A stretch of 45,534 nt of DNA from Candidatus Bipolaricaulota bacterium (lineage in GTDB: Bacteria > Bipolaricaulota > Bipolaricaulia > RBG-16-55-9 > DRXL01): the NCBI GenBank assembly GCA_025061735.1, contig JANXAU010000048.1, positions 1 through 45,534 of the forward strand. The letters are read 5' to 3'. The position numbers and the translations under genes are program-made. Each line of letters starts with the position of its first letter. The first letter of the stretch is position 1. Under the pieces are notes generated by a model. The model made no database searches. It had not been told where the DNA came from and was given only the letters and a program-made list of their open reading frames with translations. Positions 813 to 13,000 of the stretch are shown here, piece by piece.

Positions 813-3800
813 CTACAGTTTGATGACCTTCACCCTTGTATCGTAGAAGACGGCGCTGCCGCCGACGGCATCTATCAAACAGGTGTTCTTCAAGAACGGG
901 TCGACGCGCATGGCCGCGTTGCCGTGAAAGCCTCGGCCACGACGCTCGTCTTTCTTGATCAGATTCCCATCAATCACCACGTCCATAGCGCCATAGGCCC
1001 AGTGCCCCCAGCCCAGCGCAAAGCTGATCACTCCAGGGCGTATCCCTTCGGTGATCTGCACCGCGCCGGCCATCGGCACTTTGACGCCGTTCCCAAGATC
1101 CCAGACGCCTTCGGGATTGGTCGCCGAGACGATCTTGACCCGGTCCCCCGACTTCAGTCCCAAGCGCTGGGCATCTTGGCTATTCATAAGCACCAGATTC
1201 TCGGGCATGAACTCCGTCAGCCAATAGTTCCCCGAGGTGCGCGACTTCGTCTGGAGGATCTCGCGATGGGTGATGAGCTGGAGATCGAAGCCGTTCTTCT
1301 CGTCTTCAATGAGCCGGCCGCGATAGTCCGTAGGAGTGGGCAGATAGACCGCGTATCCGGGCAGCGTCTCGGCCGTCCCGCTGTGCTTGATCTCGGCGGT
1401 CTTCTCCAGATACAGATTGATCTGTCTGCCATAGCGCACCCGCAGTTGCGTGTCGGTGGGCGCGTAAGCTTCGGCGTAGCTTTGGAACCGCCCGCCCCGG
1501 TTCAGCACGGTTACGACCTTGCGCCAGAGCTTCTCCCCGACGATCGCCTGCCAGCGCTCGGGATCGAAGACGCTCTTGGGCAGATGCTTTCTCGCTTCTA
1601 AGAAGAGCTTGATCTCCTCGTCGCTGGCGTCGGGCACGGCGTCGGAGCCGTCGGCCCGCTCGCCAAAGGCCACGTTGGCGACCATTCTCAGATAGAAGTG
1701 ATCGGGGTGGGTGAAGGGCTGGCCGGGGCCCAAGCCGTTGGGGCCGAAGTTGGGCAGGCCGAGCTTCTCGGCCAAGGCCAAGAGCAGGGCCTCCCACTGC
1801 AACGCCATCTCTTCGCCATAGACCTTGACGGTCCCCGTGAGCGGCGCCACGACGGGCTGGCGCACCCCTTGCACCTTGAAGGTGACCGACGGGTGCGTCC
1901 CGCTGAACTCCCAGCGTTCTAAGTACGTCACGTCGGGGAAGATATAGTCGGCGTACATCGAAGTCTCGCCGACGACGATGTCGCTGGCGATCAGCAGCGG
2001 GATCTTATTGACATCTTGCAAGATGGGGATCCACGTATGCCCAGCGGGCAGCGCATAGACGGGCGAGGCCATATACATAAAAGCGATCTTGATGGGATAG
2101 GGATAGGCATCGCCGGCCGACGGAATGATCTCTTGGTAGATATCCGACGCCAAGGGATACCAATTGCGCCTGGCGGGGTACTTGCCCTCAAAGAGCGTAG
2201 TCTCTTCGAACTTGACCTCGTGGCGGATGAGGCTGACCCCAAAGGGCGAGAGCGCGCCGGGGTTGAGCTTGCCGAAGTTGAACGGGCCATCGGCGCGGCT
2301 GCCGAGAATGTCGTAGGTGCTAGGCCAAGACTGCCCGCCGCGCCAGTCGTAGTTGCCAATGAGCAGCGCCAAGCTGAACCACGCGAGCACGTTATAGTAG
2401 CCGTTGGTGTGCTGGCTGACGCCGCGATGCAGGTCCACCGCAGCGCGCTTGCCATGAGAGGTGAACTCGCGCGCCAGCTCTTCTAAGTCTCTCGGCGATA
2501 GCCCGCTGATCCTTGCCCATTCGGCGAGGGTCTTGGAAGACGCCGACTCCCAGAGGATCTGCAGAGCACTTTTGACGCGAATGCCCCGGATCGTCGTGTC
2601 TATGAAGAGATCACCCTCGGCGGCGTTCTTGTCGTCGTTGGGGTCGAACGCCACGGGCTGGCCGTCTTTGAGCGTCACAAAGAGTTCTTTCTCAGAGAGG
2701 CCGATCTCGCTGGCGCGCAAGAATCTCGTGGGCTTGTTGTTCTCGATCTTGACGAGCCAGCACGCGTTCGTCCACGTCGGTTCTTTGTCGGCCAAAGCTG
2801 CAGCTCGGTTGGCGTTGCTCAAATACTTCACATCGAAGCGACGATTCTCGATGACCCAGCGGATGAGCCCGAGCGCGATAGCCCCCTCGGTGCCTGGCCT
2901 GTTGGGCAGCCACTTCCACGCTTTAGAAGCTGTCTTGCTGTAGCGTGGGTCAATCACGGCGATCTTGAGGCGCCCCTTTTGCAGCCCTTCCGTGATCCGC
3001 GGCGTGCGATTCGTCGGCGTATAGTTGCCCTCAAAGGGCGATGCCCCGACGAAGATGACGAACTCCGCGCTGGCCGTGTCGGCCATCCAGTACATCTTGG
3101 AGCCGCCCGACCAGCCCTTGCCGTCCCATTGGTCGGTCATGGATTTGCCCGCAAAATAGAGGCTCCCTTGGCAGACCGTCGTGTGGCCATGACGATTGAC
3201 CGTGCCTAGGCCACCTCCAAAGAAGCGATGGGCAAAATCGCCGCGCCCGGCCTTCTGACGCCCCCAGAAATAGAGAATCTGATTGTTCTTCGGCCCCAGA
3301 TCGGGATGATCGGGGTCGATCATCTTATCTAAGTGCTCTTTGAACTTCTCTTTAAACTGCGCGACCAGCGCCCTCTTCTTGGCGACGTCCTTCTCGGCGA
3401 GGATCGTCCGGACCAAGTCGCCCATCTCTCTCATCAGTTTGGGGTCGCGCACGGCGTAGACGTCTTTGAGGCCCTCGACGACGCGGTTCTCTTCTCCGGG
3501 GACATGGGCGAAGAGCTTGCCGCCGTTGACGATCTCGTCCACGGCTTGCTCAAACGGGATCGTGATCCATTTGTTTTCGCCGCGCTTGCCCGCCCGCTTG
3601 AGCACTTTCGTAATGCGATAGGGATCGTAGAGGGTCTGCACGCCGGATTGCCCTCTGGGGCAGAGCGGGGCATCGAGCGTGGCGACGCTGGCCAGCGGCG
3701 TCTTATAGTCGAGATGGGGCACGAGATTCCAAGGCGAGTATGGGTTGCCGTCGATCTTGACGGCCATACCGTCTAAAAGCTTTACACGGATCCCGCACTG

Positions 3801-4004
3801 GCCGTTGCATTGCTGACAGACGCTATAGAGAATATTCTGGGGTTGCGAGAGCTGATATTGCTCGGCGTGGGTGAGCGCGCCCCTCTGAGCCCGGGAGGCT
3901 ACTTCGCGCGCCCAATCGAGCCGGCTCATCAGCAGCGCCGAGCCGCCCAACAGGGCCGTCGTCTTCAAGAAGCTGCGTCGGGTGATGCGTTCTGTCTCGG
4001 TCAT
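813..4004 (-). CDS. TAT-exported molybdopterin oxidoreductase catalytic subunit
   Basis: A 1063-residue member of the complex iron-sulfur molybdoenzyme family, nearest in layout to TtrA/SrdA/ArrA-type reductases. The chosen start (ATG at 4004) follows an AGGAGG and opens with the twin-arginine signal TRRSFLKTT; a longer frame upstream is Arg-rich and non-protein-like. C63, C66, C70 and C115 match the N-terminal 4Fe-4S motif (CQQCNGQC, then CPRG). NRHGHTTVCQG around residue 278 offers a Cys as the likely Mo ligand. The C-terminal part has the usual pterin-binding beta-barrel features. The substrate cannot be read from sequence; tetrathionate, polysulfide, arsenate or selenate are all possible. 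The iron-sulfur subunit lies directly upstream, 14 bp away, so the two are probably translated from one message. Confidence 0.85.
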   Translation of the reverse strand: MTETERITRRSFLKTTALLGGSALLMSRLDWAREVASRAQRGALTHAEQYQLSQPQNILYSVCQQCNGQCGIRVKLLDGMAVKIDGNPYSPWNLVPHLDYKTPLASVATLDAPLCPRGQSGVQTLYDPYRITKVLKRAGKRGENKWITIPFEQAVDEIVNGGKLFAHVPGEENRVVEGLKDVYAVRDPKLMREMGDLVRTILAEKDVAKKRALVAQFKEKFKEHLDKMIDPDHPDLGPKNNQILYFWGRQKAGRGDFAHRFFGGGLGTVNRHGHTTVCQGSLYFAGKSMTDQWDGKGWSGGSKMYWMADTASAEFVIFVGASPFEGNYTPTNRTPRITEGLQKGRLKIAVIDPRYSKTASKAWKWLPNRPGTEGAIALGLIRWVIENRRFDVKYLSNANRAAALADKEPTWTNACWLVKIENNKPTRFLRASEIGLSEKELFVTLKDGQPVAFDPNDDKNAAEGDLFIDTTIRGIRVKSALQILWESASSKTLAEWARISGLSPRDLEELAREFTSHGKRAAVDLHRGVSQHTNGYYNVLAWFSLALLIGNYDWRGGQSWPSTYDILGSRADGPFNFGKLNPGALSPFGVSLIRHEVKFEETTLFEGKYPARRNWYPLASDIYQEIIPSAGDAYPYPIKIAFMYMASPVYALPAGHTWIPILQDVNKIPLLIASDIVVGETSMYADYIFPDVTYLERWEFSGTHPSVTFKVQGVRQPVVAPLTGTVKVYGEEMALQWEALLLALAEKLGLPNFGPNGLGPGQPFTHPDHFYLRMVANVAFGERADGSDAVPDASDEEIKLFLEARKHLPKSVFDPERWQAIVGEKLWRKVVTVLNRGGRFQSYAEAYAPTDTQLRVRYGRQINLYLEKTAEIKHSGTAETLPGYAVYLPTPTDYRGRLIEDEKNGFDLQLITHREILQTKSRTSGNYWLTEFMPENLVLMNSQDAQRLGLKSGDRVKIVSATNPEGVWDLGNGVKVPMAGAVQITEGIRPGVISFALGWGHWAYGAMDVVIDGNLIKKDERRGRGFHGNAAMRVDPFLKNTCLIDAVGGSAVFYDTRVKVIKL

Positions 4005-4018
4005 ATCTTCTCTCCCTC

Positions 4019-4792
4019 CTACGGATGATGCGATTTGCAGAGCACGGGCGTGTCCGTCAGATAATAGACCCTCGGCTTGGTGCCCCTGCTCTCGTTGACG
4101 CGCATCACTTTGTCCCGTTGCTCTTTGAGCATCTGCGAGACCAGACTGTTCGGGTCGTTGAGATCGCCAAAGTACATCGCTCCGCCGATGCAGGTGGTCA
4201 CGCACGCGGGCAGCATCTTCGCTTCGAGACGGTGCAGACAGAAATGGCACTTGCGCACGGTGTTGACCGGAGGCTGGTCCTGAGTGCGCGACCAGTTTCG
4301 GCCATATTCGAGCGCCGGGCGCTGCTCATAGGCTTGCCGGGCGGGGGTGCCGTCGGTGTGAAAGCGCCCGTCGTCGAAGAAGACCGCGAGCCGATAGGGG
4401 CAAGCCCGGCGCACCGCCTCGAAGACCTCCCGACCGCGGGCGCGCTCGTAGTTAATCACGACGATGCCGTCGGGGCGCCTCTCCATGCTTCCGGGGGCGA
4501 CTTCGTTGGCCGCCGGCACGCATGGGGGATTCTCGCACTGCTGGCAGTTCATGGGCTTGAGAATTCTCTGCACGCCGGGGTAGCGACCGATTTCGATGTC
4601 CAAGACCGTGCGATAGGTCACGCCGGGTGGTGAGACGTTCTCGGCCACGCAAGCGACCGAACAAGCGAAGCACCCGATGCACTTGCGCGTGTCAATGACC
4701 ATCGCCCAGCTACGGCGCTCTAGCGGCTTCTGCATGGCGCGTTGCAGGTCCTCTTGCATCCGCACCAACGGGTTTACGGCCGTCTGGGTCAT
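4019..4792 (-). CDS. ferredoxin-like electron-transfer subunit of the Mo enzyme
   Basis: A 257-residue DmsB/TtrB-type subunit that should carry electrons between the Mo subunit and cytochromes on the outer face of the membrane. Motif I is complete (C38, C41, C44, C48), as is motif IV (C181, C184, C196, C200). Motif II has C83, C86 and C91, but position 95, where the fourth Cys belongs, is Ala. Motif III keeps only its last Cys (C131); the other three positions are R121, F124 and V127. Family folding rules pair motif II Cys 1-3 with motif III Cys 4, and the reverse, so the losses remove all four ligands of one cluster and leave three. There is no TAT signal; export with the catalytic subunit is inferred. 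An FNR-type box lies about 130 bp upstream. Confidence 0.88.
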   Translation of the reverse strand: MTQTAVNPLVRMQEDLQRAMQKPLERRSWAMVIDTRKCIGCFACSVACVAENVSPPGVTYRTVLDIEIGRYPGVQRILKPMNCQQCENPPCVPAANEVAPGSMERRPDGIVVINYERARGREVFEAVRRACPYRLAVFFDDGRFHTDGTPARQAYEQRPALEYGRNWSRTQDQPPVNTVRKCHFCLHRLEAKMLPACVTTCIGGAMYFGDLNDPNSLVSQMLKEQRDKVMRVNESRGTKPRVYYLTDTPVLCKSHHP

Positions 4793-5577: not shown

Positions 5578-6135
5578 TTATTGCCCCACCTTGTGACAGT
5601 TATAGCAGAACTCGGCTTTGGCTCCGTCCGGCGCTTTGATGTGCGTCGGGCTCATGCCGATGCTGTGACACGCTTCGCAGGTCTGGCCGGATTTCTCGGT
5701 GCCCTTGTAGCCGCTGTCGGGCTGCGCGGGCGTCTGATGGCACGGCAGGCAGAGGCTGCTGTTCGGCTGCGCCTGGTTGACCGGGTGCTTGGCTACTTTG
5801 CCCTTGTGAGGCGTCGTGTGGCACGTGGCGCAGTCTTTGGTCGGCCAGTCCGCCGGGATAGGGTGCTTGGCCTTCGGCCCCAGTCGCGAGATCACTTGCC
5901 CCTTCAAGTGCTCAAAGTGCGTGTTGATGTGACACGTCCCGCAGAAAGACATCACCGTAGGCGGCACCTCGGGCGTCACTTGATGGCACTGGAAGCAGAT
6001 CGTAGCGCTGGAGGTCGGCGCGACCTTGACATGCCCTTTGGGCACCGGAGGCTGAGTCGCCACCGCGGCGATCCCCACGGTGACGATCACGCCCAACAAG
6101 ACAACCGCCGTCAATCGAACGATTCTTCTGTTCAT
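5578..6135 (-). CDS. hexaheme cytochrome c, membrane-anchored (copy 1)
   Basis: A 185-residue multiheme cytochrome with a hydrophobic N-terminus (about residues 7-26) and six CXXCH sites: CFQCH, CGTCH, CATCH, CLPCH, CEACH and CYNCH. It has the same length and heme order as the protein at 4941-5498 (shared features include CHIN.H after the second site and the SS.CLPCH block), so one arose by duplication. The ribosome binding site is strong (GAGGAGGTGA). An FNR-type box sits upstream at 6209-6222, which suggests induction without oxygen. The likely role is electron transfer on the outer face of the membrane to or from the Mo enzyme. Confidence 0.87.
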   Translation of the reverse strand: MNRRIVRLTAVVLLGVIVTVGIAAVATQPPVPKGHVKVAPTSSATICFQCHQVTPEVPPTVMSFCGTCHINTHFEHLKGQVISRLGPKAKHPIPADWPTKDCATCHTTPHKGKVAKHPVNQAQPNSSLCLPCHQTPAQPDSGYKGTEKSGQTCEACHSIGMSPTHIKAPDGAKAEFCYNCHKVGQ

Positions 6136-6891: not shown

Positions 6892-7623
6892 ATGACCTGG
6901 GCTTGCCGGGAATGCAGACAAGAGAACTGTGCCCCCCTCTTTCGGAATTTGAGTCAGGAGGACTTTGCTGCCCTGCGCGCTCAGATGCTCACCGTGCATT
7001 ACAGCAAAGGCGATCTCATCTTTCAAGAAGGGTCGTTGGCTTCGGGCATCTATATTGTCTGTCAAGGGTTGGTGAAGTACGGCAAGTACTCCGAGGACCG
7101 CACCAAGCGTCGCATCTTCAAGATCGTGAGTCCCCCCCAGACGCTCGGCGAAGAGGCGCTCTTGGAAGAGCGCCCGTGTGTTGGGTTCGCTGCGGCGCTC
7201 ACGGACTGCACGGTAGCGTTCGTTGAGCGCCGCGCGCTCTTGCAATTCATCACCGCGCGTCCCGCTGTCTTATTGAGTCTCTGTAAGAAGTTCTCCCAAG
7301 AGCTGATGGTCTTTCAGTGCAAGCTCGTCGAGGCTTCGTATGAGCCGTTGGAGAGAAGCATTGCCCGGCTCTTGCTGTATCTGGTCTCGCGCTACGGGCA
7401 CACGGAACGGTCGGGAGCGCGCGTGCTGGAGCTGGAGCTGTCGCGCTCGGATTTAGCAGAGATGGCCGGCGTCTCGATGGAGACGGCCATTCGCGTCCTC
7501 ACCCGCCTGAAGGAGCACGGGATCCTTGACTTTGACCATCGGATTATCCGGGTGCTAGATACCGAGGCGTTAGAAGAGCGGGCCAGCCCGCTCCCCCCGT
7601 GCGTCACCGCAGACGCTACTTAG
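6892..7623 (+). CDS. FNR-like CRP-family transcriptional regulator
   Basis: A 243-residue CRP/FNR-family protein with an N-terminal cyclic-nucleotide-fold beta-roll (about 15-120), a long dimer helix and a C-terminal winged helix-turn-helix (about 180-225). C5, C8 and C13 in the first residues resemble the C-x2-C-x5-C cluster of E. coli FNR; C96 or C106 could provide the fourth ligand, with C106 close to where FNR Cys122 aligns. The recognition helix has METAIR where FNR has VETISR, keeping the Glu and Arg that read the TTGA half-site. It is the only plus-strand gene in the island. Its 3' end overlaps the convergent cytochrome b gene by 8 bp. Target-like boxes lie upstream of itself and four other transcription units. 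Confidence 0.85.
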   Translation: MTWACRECRQENCAPLFRNLSQEDFAALRAQMLTVHYSKGDLIFQEGSLASGIYIVCQGLVKYGKYSEDRTKRRIFKIVSPPQTLGEEALLEERPCVGFAAALTDCTVAFVERRALLQFITARPAVLLSLCKKFSQELMVFQCKLVEASYEPLERSIARLLLYLVSRYGHTERSGARVLELELSRSDLAEMAGVSMETAIRVLTRLKEHGILDFDHRIIRVLDTEALEERASPLPPCVTADAT

Positions 7624-8566
7624 AGGGCCAATGACAACTGAGACAGCTCTCGTTGCCCCGTCCCGTGTGATCTATCGGGAAGGGCCACTGCGCTTGGAGG
7701 TTGTGACAAGCCAAGCAATCGCTGCGCAGTTCGAGCGAGTGCGGGATCATCGGCGCTTTGCCCGGCAGCGCTACGGTCTCGATCGCCGTCTGCTCGACGG
7801 TGATCATATAGAAAGTCCCAGCGAGCAAGAGAAGCGCAACAAACGCCGCGACGGGCACGAAGACGCGGCGACGCCGGGCGACGCTCTCTGCAGACGGCGG
7901 GGACGGTTCCCCGCGCTGCAGTCGCTCTAGCTCCAAGGGATGCTCGTGGGCTAGTTCTTCTTCGGAGAGCTTGCCCGTGAAGATACTCTTGTTAAAGTGT
8001 CGAAAGTGCACGAAGTACATGTGCCATGTGAGGATGGCTAGCACAGCGAGAACGGCTTCGTAGCCATGGGCCGCTTTAGCGGCGGGCACGATCTCTCCGG
8101 GAAGAAAGCTCGTAAACCAGATGGGGTTCCACAAGATAAACCCCGTCAACACCATCAGCACCGTTCCCCAGATGAGCGCCCAGTATTCGAGCTTTTCAAT
8201 GAAGCTGTAGCGATCAAACTTGGGGTAGTTGGGCACGAGCTTGAGATAATAACCAATCGCTTGGATCAGGTCGCGCAGGTCTCGCCAGCGCAGCCACATA
8301 TAGAGCGGCGTCTGTAAAACAAAGACGCGATACCCCACGCCCACCAGGTGTGCAATCGCCGTCAAGATCAGCACAATCGCTGCGATGTGATGGATCTCGC
8401 GGAGCATCTGCACGCCCCCGAAGAACTCGGCAATCGCGTGTGCCCACGCCGTGTCGGAGAACTTCTGGGGCAGCCCCGTCGTCGCCAGCGCGATAAACGC
8501 CAGCGCCATCGCCCAGTGCTCTACAAGCTGCGTCCAGTGAAAGCGCTGATAGTATCTCTTGCTCAT
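7616..8566 (-). CDS. cytochrome b membrane subunit with two C-terminal heme c sites
   Basis: A 316-residue membrane protein. The N-terminal half has four membrane helices with His residues typical of the FdnI/cytochrome b561 group (RFHWTQLVEHW, REIHHIAAI, AAHGYE, TWHMYFVHFRHF), suited to two b hemes and quinone contact. A Pro/Arg-rich linker and a fifth helix (about 236-256) lead to an outer domain with CLACH and CLSCH near the C-terminus. It should pass electrons between the quinone pool and exported multiheme cytochromes. It overlaps the nonaheme gene by 4 bp (ATGA), which implies translational coupling. No NrfD-type subunit is present in the island, so this is the best candidate for the quinone link. 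Confidence 0.85.
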   Translation of the reverse strand: MSKRYYQRFHWTQLVEHWAMALAFIALATTGLPQKFSDTAWAHAIAEFFGGVQMLREIHHIAAIVLILTAIAHLVGVGYRVFVLQTPLYMWLRWRDLRDLIQAIGYYLKLVPNYPKFDRYSFIEKLEYWALIWGTVLMVLTGFILWNPIWFTSFLPGEIVPAAKAAHGYEAVLAVLAILTWHMYFVHFRHFNKSIFTGKLSEEELAHEHPLELERLQRGEPSPPSAESVARRRRVFVPVAAFVALLLLAGTFYMITVEQTAIETVALPGKAPMIPHSLELRSDCLACHNLQAQWPFPIDHTGRGNESCLSCHWPSK

Positions 8567-9654
8567 GCGGGCTTCCCTCCAAAGGCGCGGTGCGCCGCGT
8601 CCAGTAGGATGAAGACCACAAAGAACCCGATCACCGCGGGGATGAGAATCTTATAGAAAAGCTCGACGTAATAGACCAGGGGGAACTCCGTGGGGCTGGG
8701 GTTGTAGTGCTTGACCCACGCCGTGGGGAAGTTGGCCGTCGCCGTGGGATGACACTGCTGACACGTCTTTAAGAGATTCTCTTTGATCACTCGTGACTCT
8801 GGGTCTTTGGCGCTCTTGATGTCATGGACCCCGTGGCAGTCGTAGCAGACGGCTTCGTTCAGACGCGCTCCGGGGCGCTTCTGAAAGAGCTGCACGGTCG
8901 TCCCGTGAAAGTCGGCGACGTACGAGCGCAGCACGGCCGTTGAGAGGCCGTACTTGCTCATCTTGACGGGGTCGGCGTGGCAATTGGCGCAGATTTGGGG
9001 GGAACGCAGACGAAACTCGAGCGTGCGCGGATCTTCGATCTGATGGACGCCGTGGCAATCGGTGCACGTGGGCACATCGGGATGGTCTTGGTCTCTTATG
9101 AGATCAGCCCCGTGCACGCTCTCTTTGTAAATATCAAAGATCTGCTCGTGGCAGCGTCCACACGTCAGATCTATCTTGAGCCGGGGTTGCGCCGGCGGCG
9201 TGATGTTGTGAGCGCCGTGACAATCGGTACAGACCGGGGCTTCGCGGTGCCCTGCAGCTAGGACGCGCAGGTGGATGCTATCGAGCGTCGCTCGGTATTG
9301 CTCTTGGTGGCAAGTGCGACAGTTGGTGTAGTAGCGCAGAGAGAGTTCGCGGCGATCCCGCACGGCCAAGGGCGGGTGAGGGAACCCGGTAATATCGCGA
9401 TGACAGCTCACGCACGTCAGCCCAGCCTTGGCGTGGACAGACTCAGAGAAGACTTTCATGTCAACCCACAGGGGCAGTTCTTCGCCGCTGGGCAGCGTCG
9501 TGCTTAGCCCTTCGTTCCCATGACACGTGATGCATTCGCTGATGGGAATTGCTGACTCTTGAGCGGGCGCCGGCCACGAGAGCAGCAGAAGAACGATAAG
9601 AGTCAGTAGAGATGAACGTCTGTGCGTCCGTATGGATCTGCTGTGCTTACCCAT
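8563..9654 (-). CDS. nonaheme cytochrome c with C-terminal membrane anchor
   Basis: A 363-residue cytochrome with a signal peptide (hydrophobic core LLTLIVLLLLSW), nine CXXCH sites (CITCH, CVSCH, CRTCH, CTDCH, CGRCH, CTDCH, CANCH, CYDCH, CQQCH) and a C-terminal membrane helix (about residues 333-352). The three CHG[AV]H sites look like repeated two-heme units, which suggests growth by internal duplication. It lies between ccsA (8-bp overlap) and the cytochrome b gene (4-bp overlap), so the three are surely one operon. Its likely job is to receive electrons from the cytochrome b on the outer membrane face and hand them to soluble or anchored partners such as the two hexaheme proteins. Confidence 0.88.
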   Translation of the reverse strand: MGKHSRSIRTHRRSSLLTLIVLLLLSWPAPAQESAIPISECITCHGNEGLSTTLPSGEELPLWVDMKVFSESVHAKAGLTCVSCHRDITGFPHPPLAVRDRRELSLRYYTNCRTCHQEQYRATLDSIHLRVLAAGHREAPVCTDCHGAHNITPPAQPRLKIDLTCGRCHEQIFDIYKESVHGADLIRDQDHPDVPTCTDCHGVHQIEDPRTLEFRLRSPQICANCHADPVKMSKYGLSTAVLRSYVADFHGTTVQLFQKRPGARLNEAVCYDCHGVHDIKSAKDPESRVIKENLLKTCQQCHPTATANFPTAWVKHYNPSPTEFPLVYYVELFYKILIPAVIGFFVVFILLDAAHRAFGGKPA

Positions 9655-10534
9655 AGCTGTGCAGCCCAGAGAGCAGATAGTTCACACCCCACCATGTAAA
9701 CATACAGACAGCGAACCCCAGCACAGCGAGCCACGCGGTCTTGGCGTCGCGCCAGCCCCACTTCACCCGCACGTGCAGATAGAGCGCGTAGATAAACCAA
9801 CTGATCAGCATCCACGTCTCTTTGGGGTCCCAGCCCCAGTAGCGCCCCCAGGCGTGCTGCGCCCAGACGGCTCCAAAGACAATCCCGCCGAGCGTGAAGA
9901 GCGGAAATCCAATCGCAATCGACTTATAGCTGACGTTGTCTAGCAATTTCAGCGTCTCTACAGAGGCCCGTCGCTGGAGCACCAGGAAGAGCAATGCTGC
10001 ACCGAAAGCGATGGCAAAGAACGCCTCCCCGCCGAGCGTGAAGAGCACGTGCAGCTTGAGCCAATAGCTCTGCAACGCGGGCACGAGCGGACGCACCTCC
10101 GACGAGATCAACGGCGACGAAGCGAGCGCCACCGCGATGAACGACAGCCCCGTCACCATCGCGCCGATCACTTTGATCTTATAGCGCCTCTCGAAGAAGA
10201 GATAGACCAACGGGATCGCCCACGAGAAGAAAGCGAGAGTCTCGTACGTGTTCGTCACCGGGAGCGTCCAATACTCCGAGACGCGCGCGATCTCGATCGT
10301 GCGCAGAACCATCGCCACGGTGCTGAAGATCACGGTGATCGCCGTGCTCCACGTGGCGAGCGTCCCCCACGTCGTCTGCTTGATCAACCACGGGGTTGTC
10401 GTCGCGGAGATCCCTAAACCCGTGCCTACCGTCTTCGCGGTCCCTTTAGGCTCGCCGATCAGGTGCAACAGATAGAAGACAAAGCTGATAAAATACCCGA
10501 TGGCCGTCAGATAGAAGAAGAACGTGCTGTCCAT
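9647..10534 (-). CDS. ccsA: CcsA-type heme handling protein (System II c-type cytochrome maturation)
   Basis: A 295-residue polytopic membrane protein of the ResC/CcsA family. The tryptophan-rich WWD signature is visible (WGRYWGWDPKETW, about residues 230-242), and conserved His residues in flanking helices (for example WLKLHVLF, AQHAWG) fit the heme-binding role. With ResB just upstream it exports heme and attaches it to CXXCH sites. The island contains 23 such sites across four cytochromes, so dedicated maturation genes make sense. Eight bases overlap the nonaheme cytochrome gene. Confidence 0.92.
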   Translation of the reverse strand: MDSTFFFYLTAIGYFISFVFYLLHLIGEPKGTAKTVGTGLGISATTTPWLIKQTTWGTLATWSTAITVIFSTVAMVLRTIEIARVSEYWTLPVTNTYETLAFFSWAIPLVYLFFERRYKIKVIGAMVTGLSFIAVALASSPLISSEVRPLVPALQSYWLKLHVLFTLGGEAFFAIAFGAALLFLVLQRRASVETLKLLDNVSYKSIAIGFPLFTLGGIVFGAVWAQHAWGRYWGWDPKETWMLISWFIYALYLHVRVKWGWRDAKTAWLAVLGFAVCMFTWWGVNYLLSGLHSYG

Positions 10535-10549
10535 GATGACCCTCCTTTA

Positions 10550-12394
10550 TTATTTTGAGAGAGTAACGCTCGTCTTGGGCTTCTCTTTGGCAGAATCTTC
10601 ACCCTCTCCCTTCGCCCTCTCCCTCTCAGGGAGGGGGGTGGGGTGAGGGTTAAACTTCAACTCTTCGACGATCTCTTCTAGCTCCGGCTCGAACTCCCGC
10701 GGCTCGCGCCCCAGCCCACCCACATAGAGTTTGCTCTCTTGATAAGCCGCCCAGATGCGCCTCGGCGGGAGATAGAAGTTCATGAAAAGCCCCAGCATCA
10801 TCAAGACAAAGCCCGTGTAGATCAGAGGGATGCCCGGATTGGAAGCGATCTGCAAGCCCGTGAACTCCGGCGCGGTCATCCCCGTGACAAAGAATCGATA
10901 CGGGTTCTCCCGGGTGAACTCATGCTGGAACTCCGGGAACTGCGCAAACGCCCAGGTCGCGAACTCGCGCTGCTCCCCTTTGAAGACTTCCAAGAAGACA
11001 GCAGGGTTGTTCAAGCGCCCGCTGCGGTTGGCCGGACGACGGTCTTCCCCGATCATAAAGTCAGGGAAGAACGCGCTGATCTTCACGCGGCGGCCCTCGT
11101 CGTCTAGGGTAAATTCTTCGCCGACTTTCGCGGTGAACTCCCCCAAAGGGAGCGTCGCGCCGTCGGGCTGCACGCGCTCGACGCGCAGCGTCAAGTGCGC
11201 CCCGCCCAGCCAGTCCGTCCCAAACGAAGACTGATAAAACGTGATCCCCTTGTACGTCAAGGGATCGTTGACTTCTATCGTCTTGGTCAAGACTTCTTTG
11301 CCGTTGTCAATGATCGTGAGCTTGGTGTACCAGTCTTTGATCTGCGGGGAATCGGCGTAGCTGGTGGTCCAGAGGTCGTCCACGCGCACGTCGAAGCCGC
11401 CACGGGCTACGTGAAACGTCTCGCCCTTATGCGCGACTTGGAACTCCTCAAATCCCAACAGCCCGCCGACGATCCCGCCGATGAGTACAATCAGAAGACT
11501 GACGTGCAAGAGATCTACTCCCAGCCGCCCCCACAGGTGCTTATACGCCGTGAGCTGAGCGCCCGCGCGCCGGACGCGATAGCGACGCCGCTCTAAGAGC
11601 TGAGCGAGCCGCTCCAGTCCATCTTCGGGGATCGCTATCTTCGCGTGGGTCGGCAGCTTGGCGATCTCGTCGACCGAGCGCGGCTCGACGGGCTTGCGCA
11701 CCATCTCCCACGAGACCCTGAAGCGCTTGATCGCGCAGCAGACGGTGTTGATCACCAGTAGAATTAATAATCCCAAAAAGTACCACGAGCTGTAGAGCCG
11801 ATCGAACTGAAAGAACCGAATGAGCTGAGCGCCAGATAGACCGTAGCGCTCGACATAGACCATCGGGTTTTGATTCTGCGGGATGAGCGTCCCGATCACC
11901 GAGATCAGCGCCAGCGCGATGAGCAACCCGATGGCCAATTTAATAGACGTGAGCTGTTCCCAGATCAAGCTGCCCCAAGGAGTGCGCTTGGTCTCGCCCA
12001 AGATTTCTCGGATCTGGCGAGCGACTTCGGCGCCGCCCTGCACGCACGAGTCCGGCGGACTCTCGCCGCGCACGATGGCCATCGCGTTCTCGGCGCACGT
12101 CCGATAGCCGCAGCGCCCGCAGTTCAGCCCACCCAAGACCGCGACCACTTGCGCGACCTTCTCGCGCGGGACAGCCACCGTCATGCCGTTGTTGGCCAGC
12201 GTGGAAGCCACCCCTGTCGCCACTGGCGCAGCGCTCGCGACTGCGCTCAACGCGACCCCGCAGAACTTGCAGAAACGACTATCGGGGGTGTTGGCCGTGC
12301 CGCACGCACTGCAAACGATTTGCAAGGGCGCTCCGCACGCCTTGCAGAACCGACTATCTGCTGTGTTCACCGTCTGGCACTTCTCGCAGGTCAT
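10550..12394 (-). CDS. resB: ResB-type maturation protein with N-terminal zinc ribbons and 4Fe-4S domain
   Basis: A 614-residue protein with an unusual domain order. Residues 3-20 (C3, C6, C17, C20) and 28-45 (C28, C31, C42, C45) form two zinc ribbons. Residues 92-117 (C92, C95, C100, C117, followed by GG) match the 4Fe-4S domain seen in RnfB and in corrinoid iron-sulfur proteins. From about 140 onward is an ordinary ResB: membrane helices (for example LAIGLLIALALISVIGTL), a large outer domain and a last helix near LIYTGFVLMMLGL. ResB works with CcsA to attach heme to cytochromes c. The extra domains sit before the first helix, so presumably in the cytoplasm. The C-terminal tail from about residue 582 is encoded by a dispersed palindromic repeat (NPHPTPLPERER). 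Confidence 0.88.
   Translation of the reverse strand: MTCEKCQTVNTADSRFCKACGAPLQIVCSACGTANTPDSRFCKFCGVALSAVASAAPVATGVASTLANNGMTVAVPREKVAQVVAVLGGLNCGRCGYRTCAENAMAIVRGESPPDSCVQGGAEVARQIREILGETKRTPWGSLIWEQLTSIKLAIGLLIALALISVIGTLIPQNQNPMVYVERYGLSGAQLIRFFQFDRLYSSWYFLGLLILLVINTVCCAIKRFRVSWEMVRKPVEPRSVDEIAKLPTHAKIAIPEDGLERLAQLLERRRYRVRRAGAQLTAYKHLWGRLGVDLLHVSLLIVLIGGIVGGLLGFEEFQVAHKGETFHVARGGFDVRVDDLWTTSYADSPQIKDWYTKLTIIDNGKEVLTKTIEVNDPLTYKGITFYQSSFGTDWLGGAHLTLRVERVQPDGATLPLGEFTAKVGEEFTLDDEGRRVKISAFFPDFMIGEDRRPANRSGRLNNPAVFLEVFKGEQREFATWAFAQFPEFQHEFTRENPYRFFVTGMTAPEFTGLQIASNPGIPLIYTGFVLMMLGLFMNFYLPPRRIWAAYQESKLYVGGLGREPREFEPELEEIVEELKFNPHPTPLPERERAKGEGEDSAKEKPKTSVTLSK
10601..10650. repeat. palindromic repeat inside the 3' end of resB
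   Basis: A CCCTCTCCC/GGGAGGGGG-type palindrome lies within the last 50 codons of the ResB frame. It is read through as NPHPTPLPERERAKGEGE without disturbing the frame. Similar sequence occurs at 5516-5562 and 30826-30890. Confidence 0.7.
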
Positions 12395-12400
12395 CGCCGA

Positions 12401-13000
12401 TCACTCGCTTTCGTGAAGAAGTCCCAGTCGCTGGAAATTCTGGGCGATCTCTTCGCCCTTGAGCGGCCCCAGCCAGACTCCCCGGATGTGCCCTTCAGGG
12501 TCTATGAAGAACGTCGTTGGGGTTCCCGTCAGCCTGTAAGTGACGAACGCCGTGCCACGCTCGTCCAAGAGATTGGTGTACGTCACGCCGTAGCGCTCCA
12601 AGAACGACTGGACGGTCTGGGCCGGCTCTCCCCAGTTGACGCCGATCAGGGCGATCTTTGTGCCAAACTGCTCGTGAAACCGTTGCAGATCGGGCAGCTC
12701 TTGGCGGCAGGGCGGGCACCACGCCGCCCAGAAGTTCAACAAGACGGGCTTGCCCCTCAGATCGCTCAGCCGCACGATCTGATTCTTCAGATCCGGCAGG
12801 CTGATCTCCGGGGCCAGATACCCCAAGCGGGGAGCGACTTCTTTTTGGAGTTCGTTGGGGTCTTCGACGAAGAAGCCGGCGCCGTGGCTGAGCGTGAATC
12901 GGCTCAGGTCGCTGCGCTCGGCGAAGAACGAATAGCTGATCACCGCGAGCGTCACCGCTCCGACGAGAATAATCATCCCCACGATCAGTCTCTTCAGCAC
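12401..13000 (-). CDS. membrane-anchored thioredoxin-like protein (ResA/TlpA)
   Basis: A 199-residue protein with an N-terminal membrane anchor (about residues 5-24) and an exported thioredoxin fold. The active site is WCPPC (about residue 95), with a cis-Pro in GTPTTFFID. ResA/TlpA proteins reduce the Cys pairs of apocytochromes c before heme attachment, which suits its place as first gene of the maturation operon. An FNR-type box lies 82-95 bp upstream. ResB starts six bases past its stop codon. Confidence 0.9.
   Translation of the reverse strand: MLKRLIVGMIILVGAVTLAVISYSFFAERSDLSRFTLSHGAGFFVEDPNELQKEVAPRLGYLAPEISLPDLKNQIVRLSDLRGKPVLLNFWAAWCPPCRQELPDLQRFHEQFGTKIALIGVNWGEPAQTVQSFLERYGVTYTNLLDERGTAFVTYRLTGTPTTFFIDPEGHIRGVWLGPLKGEEIAQNFQRLGLLHESE

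Follow-up and report, generated by a model that had tools for sequence, protein, structure and literature searches.

System II must export ferrous haem and attach it, and the literature that we found names no electron donor for this step. Attachment needs Fe2+, haem enters from the cytoplasm, and its route through CcsBA leads from a TM-His site in the inner leaflet to the periplasm; of the two ligands of this TM-haem, CcsB contributes TM-His2 (PMC10663686). Maturation factors that reduce haem ahead of its attachment are known from other systems, namely CcmF with its b-haem (System I) and Cyc2p (System III) (PMC10663686, PMC3884852). CcmF uses a comparable TM-haem, whose reductant is stated to be unknown (PMC10663686), and Cyc2p uses a flavin, but neither is a ResB and neither has been described with an iron-sulfur (FeS) domain. 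An FeS module of the type considered here is the FdI domain of RnfB, a mobile carrier tethered to a helix, very probably with a [4Fe-4S] cluster, which shuttles electrons between the cytoplasmic clusters and the membrane core of Rnf (PMC9588780).

In a contig of 45,534 nucleotides (the window; all coordinates without a prefix refer to it) from the fragmented draft genome (80 contigs) of a Bipolaricaulota (Acetothermia) bacterium, G000, a ResB gene was found to carry zinc ribbons and such an FeS domain. It is a real, conserved and lineage-restricted new architecture of a known machine. This natural fusion of a predicted membrane-proximal [4Fe-4S] carrier domain to a haem-handling subunit makes a donor testable within one complex.

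Domain make-up of the fused protein

The fusion gene and its parts are as follows.

10550..12394, minus strand: DZR-FeS-ResB fusion gene, 614 aa (ORF and Pfam; an 81%-identical relative shares the architecture)
12257..12388, minus strand: double zinc ribbon, residues 3-46 (Pfam DZR PF12773, 8.8e-11)
12041..12130, minus strand: FeS domain PF04060, residues 89-118, C92-X2-C-X4-C-X16-C117 (Pfam 1.5e-10)
11870..11959, minus strand: first ResB transmembrane helix, about residues 146-175 (hydropathy)
10703..11941, minus strand: ResB domain, residues 152-564 (Pfam PF05140, 9.4e-85)
11735..11737, minus strand: C220, cytoplasmic end of TM2, invariant in all aligned ResB
11504..11506, minus strand: H297 in TM3, sole invariant His

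The Pfam scores stood well clear of the curated cut-offs for the double ribbon (42.2 versus 27.3 bits), the FeS domain (41.1 versus 23 bits) and ResB (285.7 versus 24.6 bits), the last being complete. The ribbons, two CX2C-X10-CX2C units (C3/6/17/20 and C28/31/42/45), are predicted from the DZR profile match to bind zinc, and the FeS cysteines are C92/95/100/117. The ORF, its coordinates and strand and every cysteine named in the original prediction were exact, and its placing of the three cysteine sets ahead of the first ResB membrane helix agrees with a TM1 that begins near residue 146. Apart from the three N-terminal motifs, cysteine occurs only twice, as C219 and C220, where TM2 ends on the cytoplasmic side; the periplasmic side of the ResB part has none. 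Positive-inside charges place the N-terminus of the fused ResB on the cytoplasmic side, with the FeS domain on that face about 30 residues ahead of TM1.

Seven genomes from two genera (G000, G055 and G050-G054) show no change in any of the 12 N-terminal cysteines. The fusion of the eighth genome, G057, retains one ribbon and all four FeS cysteines, the latter being invariant in 8/8 fusions. When the contig gene was compared with its 81%-identical relative (L003), dN/dS was 0.13 for the ribbons, 0.12 for the FeS domain, 0.33 for the linker and 0.09 for ResB, so that constraint on the FeS domain comes close to that on ResB. Given purifying selection on the N-terminus and the invariance of its cysteines, we take the start at 12394 to be real; a start at M71 was rejected on the ribbon and FeS values, and a start after residue 130, set out beforehand as what would undo the original prediction, is ruled out by the same selection. 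A start much further upstream would not fit, because the TlpA gene there ends six bases before the fusion gene, whose first ribbon cysteine is residue 3.

The third motif had been assigned to the RnfB/corrinoid-protein type of 4Fe-4S domain, and the PF04060 match, the RnfB models and the RnfB chains in the PDB bear this out. Among NCBIfam models of the FeS region those of RnfB ranked first (TIGR01944, 2.6e-12), at a score of 46.7 bits, below that model's cut-off of 68.7; with no Rnf genes within the locus, the fused protein does not qualify as the Rnf subunit RnfB. In a single-sequence search the sole PDB relatives, matched over residues 62-134, were the RnfB chains 7zc6 (1e-6), 9eri and 8ahx, whose FdI is the same cytoplasmic CX2CX4CX16C domain of PF04060 and likewise adjoins a transmembrane helix. 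The order, however, is reversed, since the fusion has its FeS domain ahead of TM1 whereas in RnfB an N-terminal transmembrane helix precedes FdI; furthermore, the fusion has no additional ferredoxin domains and its FeS domain is joined to ResB rather than to the Rnf core. The N-terminal [4Fe-4S] domain of the corrinoid iron-sulfur protein belongs to the same family (the ACS gamma subunit model matched weakly, 0.002), but the corrinoid domain of that protein is absent here. An 88-residue FeS fragment was modelled with a moderate pLDDT of 75, and a PDB fold search with it gave no significant match; the assignment of an FdI-type fold therefore rests on sequence profiles. The full-length AlphaFold model (pLDDT 43) was unusable, the alignment being too shallow.

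The only other PF04060 domain of the host genome lies in an Rnf/Nqr-like operon (G000:C38, L050:6678-14361), which holds two Rnf-Nqr membrane subunits, an FMN_bind subunit, an RnfC/NqrA-like protein of 478 aa and, as the RnfB equivalent, a 212-aa TM-[2Fe-2S]-FeS protein. This operon directly adjoins a Rieske protein and a cytochrome b.

With ordinary System II ResB-ResC/CcsB-CcsA pairs (B. subtilis; H. hepaticus, 7s9y) the fusion shares the ResB domain, the TM3 His and a C220-type Cys, as well as a ResC with a WWD motif, an adjacent TlpA and a CcdA in the genome. The zinc ribbons and the FeS domain, in contrast, are absent from ordinary ResB, including the host's own paralogue. Across the phylum's ResB proteins H297 is the only invariant His, and it was still invariant once two further sequences from other phyla were added; in the alignment with the H. 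hepaticus CcsBA structure 7s9y its counterpart is the His at chain position 83, and H297 is a probable TM-haem ligand. On these sequence grounds the product is predicted to be the ResB (CcsB) of a System II synthase with a role in cytochrome c maturation.

Distribution and origin of the fusion

The fusion occurs in 8 of 100 genomes examined from the phylum: seven (G000, G055 and G050-G054) belong to the host's family, f1, and the eighth, G057, to a different family within the order. A search of 389 genomes, about 289 from other phyla, with a profile of the stretch from FeS to TM2 gave a match spanning both FeS and ResB for the same eight genomes only; two partial matches from other phyla, G206 and G270, proved on reading to have no FeS domain. 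The fusion was not found among about 320 genomes sampled from other phyla in all, including five small added phylum samples (about 30 genomes), most of which lacked a positive control of their own, nor in the plasmid and viral collections. In a GTDB-wide contig scan the closest relative was an Acetothermia genome bin, and only close relatives matched, which is as far as a scan with exact peptide patterns from one sequence reaches. Our literature search found no paper describing such a fusion. The expectation that a ResB with zinc ribbons and an FeS domain would be unusual was thus upheld: the architecture is rare in the genomes sampled, and we make no claim of uniqueness.

When ResB domains are placed in a maximum-likelihood tree, all eight fused proteins fall into a single clade (support 99/92), which sits beside the ordinary ResB of the same order (support 100/99). 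A horizontal origin is unsupported, the fused ResB being sister to the order's own ResB, and the simplest reading of the tree would be one fusion on an old paralogue followed by vertical descent. The fragmented state of the draft raises the question of whether ribbons and FeS domain are foreign to the protein, joined to it by annotation or assembly; this is contradicted by the presence of the same fusion in eight genomes and by the purifying selection over its N-terminus, and we regard it as extremely improbable.

Elsewhere in the order, three ordinary ResB proteins from further families (L044/G047, L045/G061 and L047/G060) have, in place of an FeS domain, an extra N-terminal stretch that resembles added membrane helices.

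Cytochromes and thiol reduction at the fused loci

The fusion gene stands in a run of genes on one strand.

12401..13000, minus strand: TlpA/ResA-type thiol-disulfide oxidoreductase, CPPC, directly upstream of the fusion
9647..10534, minus strand: ResC/CcsA-type partner, WWD motif WGRYWGWD, directly downstream of the fusion (NCBIfam TIGR03144, 4.3e-70)
8563..9654, minus strand: multihaem cytochrome c, 9 CXXCH
7616..8566, minus strand: cytochrome b561-type membrane protein, 2 CXXCH
5578..6135, minus strand: hexahaem cytochrome c, 185 aa
4941..5498, minus strand: hexahaem cytochrome c, 185 aa
4019..4792, minus strand: 4Fe-4S dicluster subunit, TtrB-like
813..4250, minus strand: molybdopterin oxidoreductase, TtrA-like (far below the equivalog cut-off; start uncertain)

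The order TlpA-ResB-ResC is kept in 8/8 fused loci, and relatives of the contig's 185-aa hexahaem cytochromes were found in seven of them, G057 having a five-haem protein nearby. Paired-CXXCH matches were obtained in 7/8 fused versus 3/11 unfused genomes of the order (Fisher p 0.02, kinship ignored), counts that are inflated by kinship and taken from draft genomes. A strict link between fusion and multihaem cytochromes was rejected on these counts; what exists is an association and no rule. G062 and G063 have paired-CXXCH cytochromes without a detected fusion.

Since the fused locus lies beside cytochromes, whereas the ordinary ResB-ResC paralogue of the host (G000:C66) is accompanied by a TlpA and by no cytochrome, the pair resembles the split between general and dedicated haem lyases seen, for example, in Wolinella, where NrfI and CcsA1 likewise provide a second System II synthase beside the general one and NrfI is encoded in the operon of its substrate (PMC12285233). 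The likeness does not extend to the substrates: NrfI and CcsA1 serve unusual motifs, but the four contig cytochromes carry only CXXCH, and special haem motifs were therefore dropped as the reason for a second synthase.

Two further features of the locus may be recorded. The TtrA/TtrB-like pair at 813-4792, accompanied by the two hexahaem cytochromes, scored far below the tetrathionate reductase equivalog cut-offs. A Crp/Fnr-type regulator gene (6892-7623, opposite strand), far below every Fnr equivalog cut-off, lies between the two cytochrome groups, and its relatives stand near several fused loci.

The neighbouring TlpA bears on one proposed function, in which the FeS domain feeds electrons to apocytochrome disulfides in place of CcdA. 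The Pfam CcdA model (PF02683) fell short of its cut-off in most family-f1 fusion genomes, which first suggested such a replacement; direct search, however, recovered CcdA in 7/7 of these genomes, G057 has DsbD_TM matches, and a divergent CcdA that carries PCGF and GC motifs occurs in all ten genomes of the host's family (the host's copy, G000:C72:56369-57241, scores below the Pfam DsbD_TM cut-off). The replacement was dropped once this family-wide CcdA had been found. With a CcdA in the genome and no cysteine on the periplasmic side of ResB, a role in thiol reduction is very improbable.

Roles considered for the cytoplasmic domains

The original prediction had offered redox sensing or electron supply, for haem or for thiols, as the task of the cytoplasmic domains; of the two electron-supply roles, haem reduction is favoured and thiol reduction disfavoured by the CcdA and TlpA genes and by the cysteine-free periplasmic face. 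An FdI-type domain some 30 residues before TM1 would bring an electron carrier close to where haem enters. Our best explanation, held tentatively and at slightly less than an even chance, is a specialised System II synthase in which the FeS domain passes cytoplasmic electrons to haem in the inner leaflet. The fused ResB would form half of a second synthase, TlpA-ResB-ResC, for the cytochromes encoded alongside. Its FeS domain, we infer, binds one [4Fe-4S] cluster and acts like FdI of RnfB. Its electrons would come from ferredoxin or a comparable donor in the cytoplasm and would pass to haem at the TM-His site of the inner leaflet, which ResB (with H297) and ResC hold between them, so that haem would reach the site of attachment in the periplasm in its ferrous form. 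As for the zinc ribbons, they probably serve as a docking surface for the donor or for a partner from haem synthesis.

We counted in favour of haem reduction the likeness of the FeS domain to RnfB FdI, its cytoplasmic position and invariant cysteines, the retention of H297, C220 and the ResC WWD motif, the single clade of fused ResB, the TlpA-ResB-ResC order with its neighbouring hexahaem cytochromes and the separate supply of the thiol arm, and against it the presumed ability of ordinary ResB, including the paralogue in the same genome, to work without such a domain, together with the paired-CXXCH cytochromes of G062 and G063 and the unusable full-length model. The FeS domain is thus not needed for haem attachment in general, since ordinary ResB presumably does without one. 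This mechanism of electron delivery to haem is plausible, and if true it would mean that the FdI module of RnfB has found a second use beyond Rnf, as a plug-in shuttle for electrons.

The same modules, attached to a complete ResB, might instead constitute a redox or oxygen sensor, cluster and ribbons gating haem export or synthase assembly without passing an electron to haem. A Crp/Fnr-type regulator gene is close by in several loci, but no known output device is fused, and the domain is most like RnfB FdI, an electron carrier, and lies beside a haem path that requires redox chemistry; we consider the sensor fairly unlikely. Zinc ribbons are commonly binding modules, and ribbons and FeS domain together might bind ferrochelatase, a haem carrier or ResC, the cluster merely holding the fold. 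The cytoplasmic domain of unfused CcsB-CcsA complexes, which stands at the haem entry site, has been proposed to aid haem delivery (PMC10663686). The absence of a whole ribbon in G057, where all FeS cysteines are present as in every other fusion, nevertheless points to the cluster, albeit weakly because a structural cluster keeps its ligands too, and a purely docking or structural role seems rather unlikely.

The neighbouring multihaem cytochromes and molybdopterin reductase, and a separate ordinary ResB-ResC that could do the assembly, are also what would be expected if FeS-ResB-ResC carried ferredoxin electrons via TM-haem and P-haem to the periplasmic multihaem cytochromes and took no part in assembly. 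The same-strand adjacency of TlpA and the retained WWD and TM-His indicate assembly, however, and we know of no ResBC homologue that acts as an electron conduit; a purely respiratory function is quite improbable. A ferredoxin-driven path that carries low-potential electrons from FeS through TM-haem to P-haem, either reducing haem for attachment or directly charging the periplasmic multihaem cytochromes, is unlikely, and if true would make a cytochrome synthase double as a ferredoxin:cytochrome oxidoreductase.

In most pairs, conservation is poor along the C-terminal tail of the fused ResB. This tail contains one further feature.

10617..10637, no strand: dispersed palindromic DNA repeat (CTCTCCCT..AGGGAGGGGG) within the C-terminal gene tail

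This repeat, a palindrome of sequence CTCTCCCTnnnAGGGAGAGGG, is found again and again in these genomes, with further copies at L034:4675, 7759, 13809, 15878 and 18966, and in the fused ResB it has become part of the C-terminal coding sequence.
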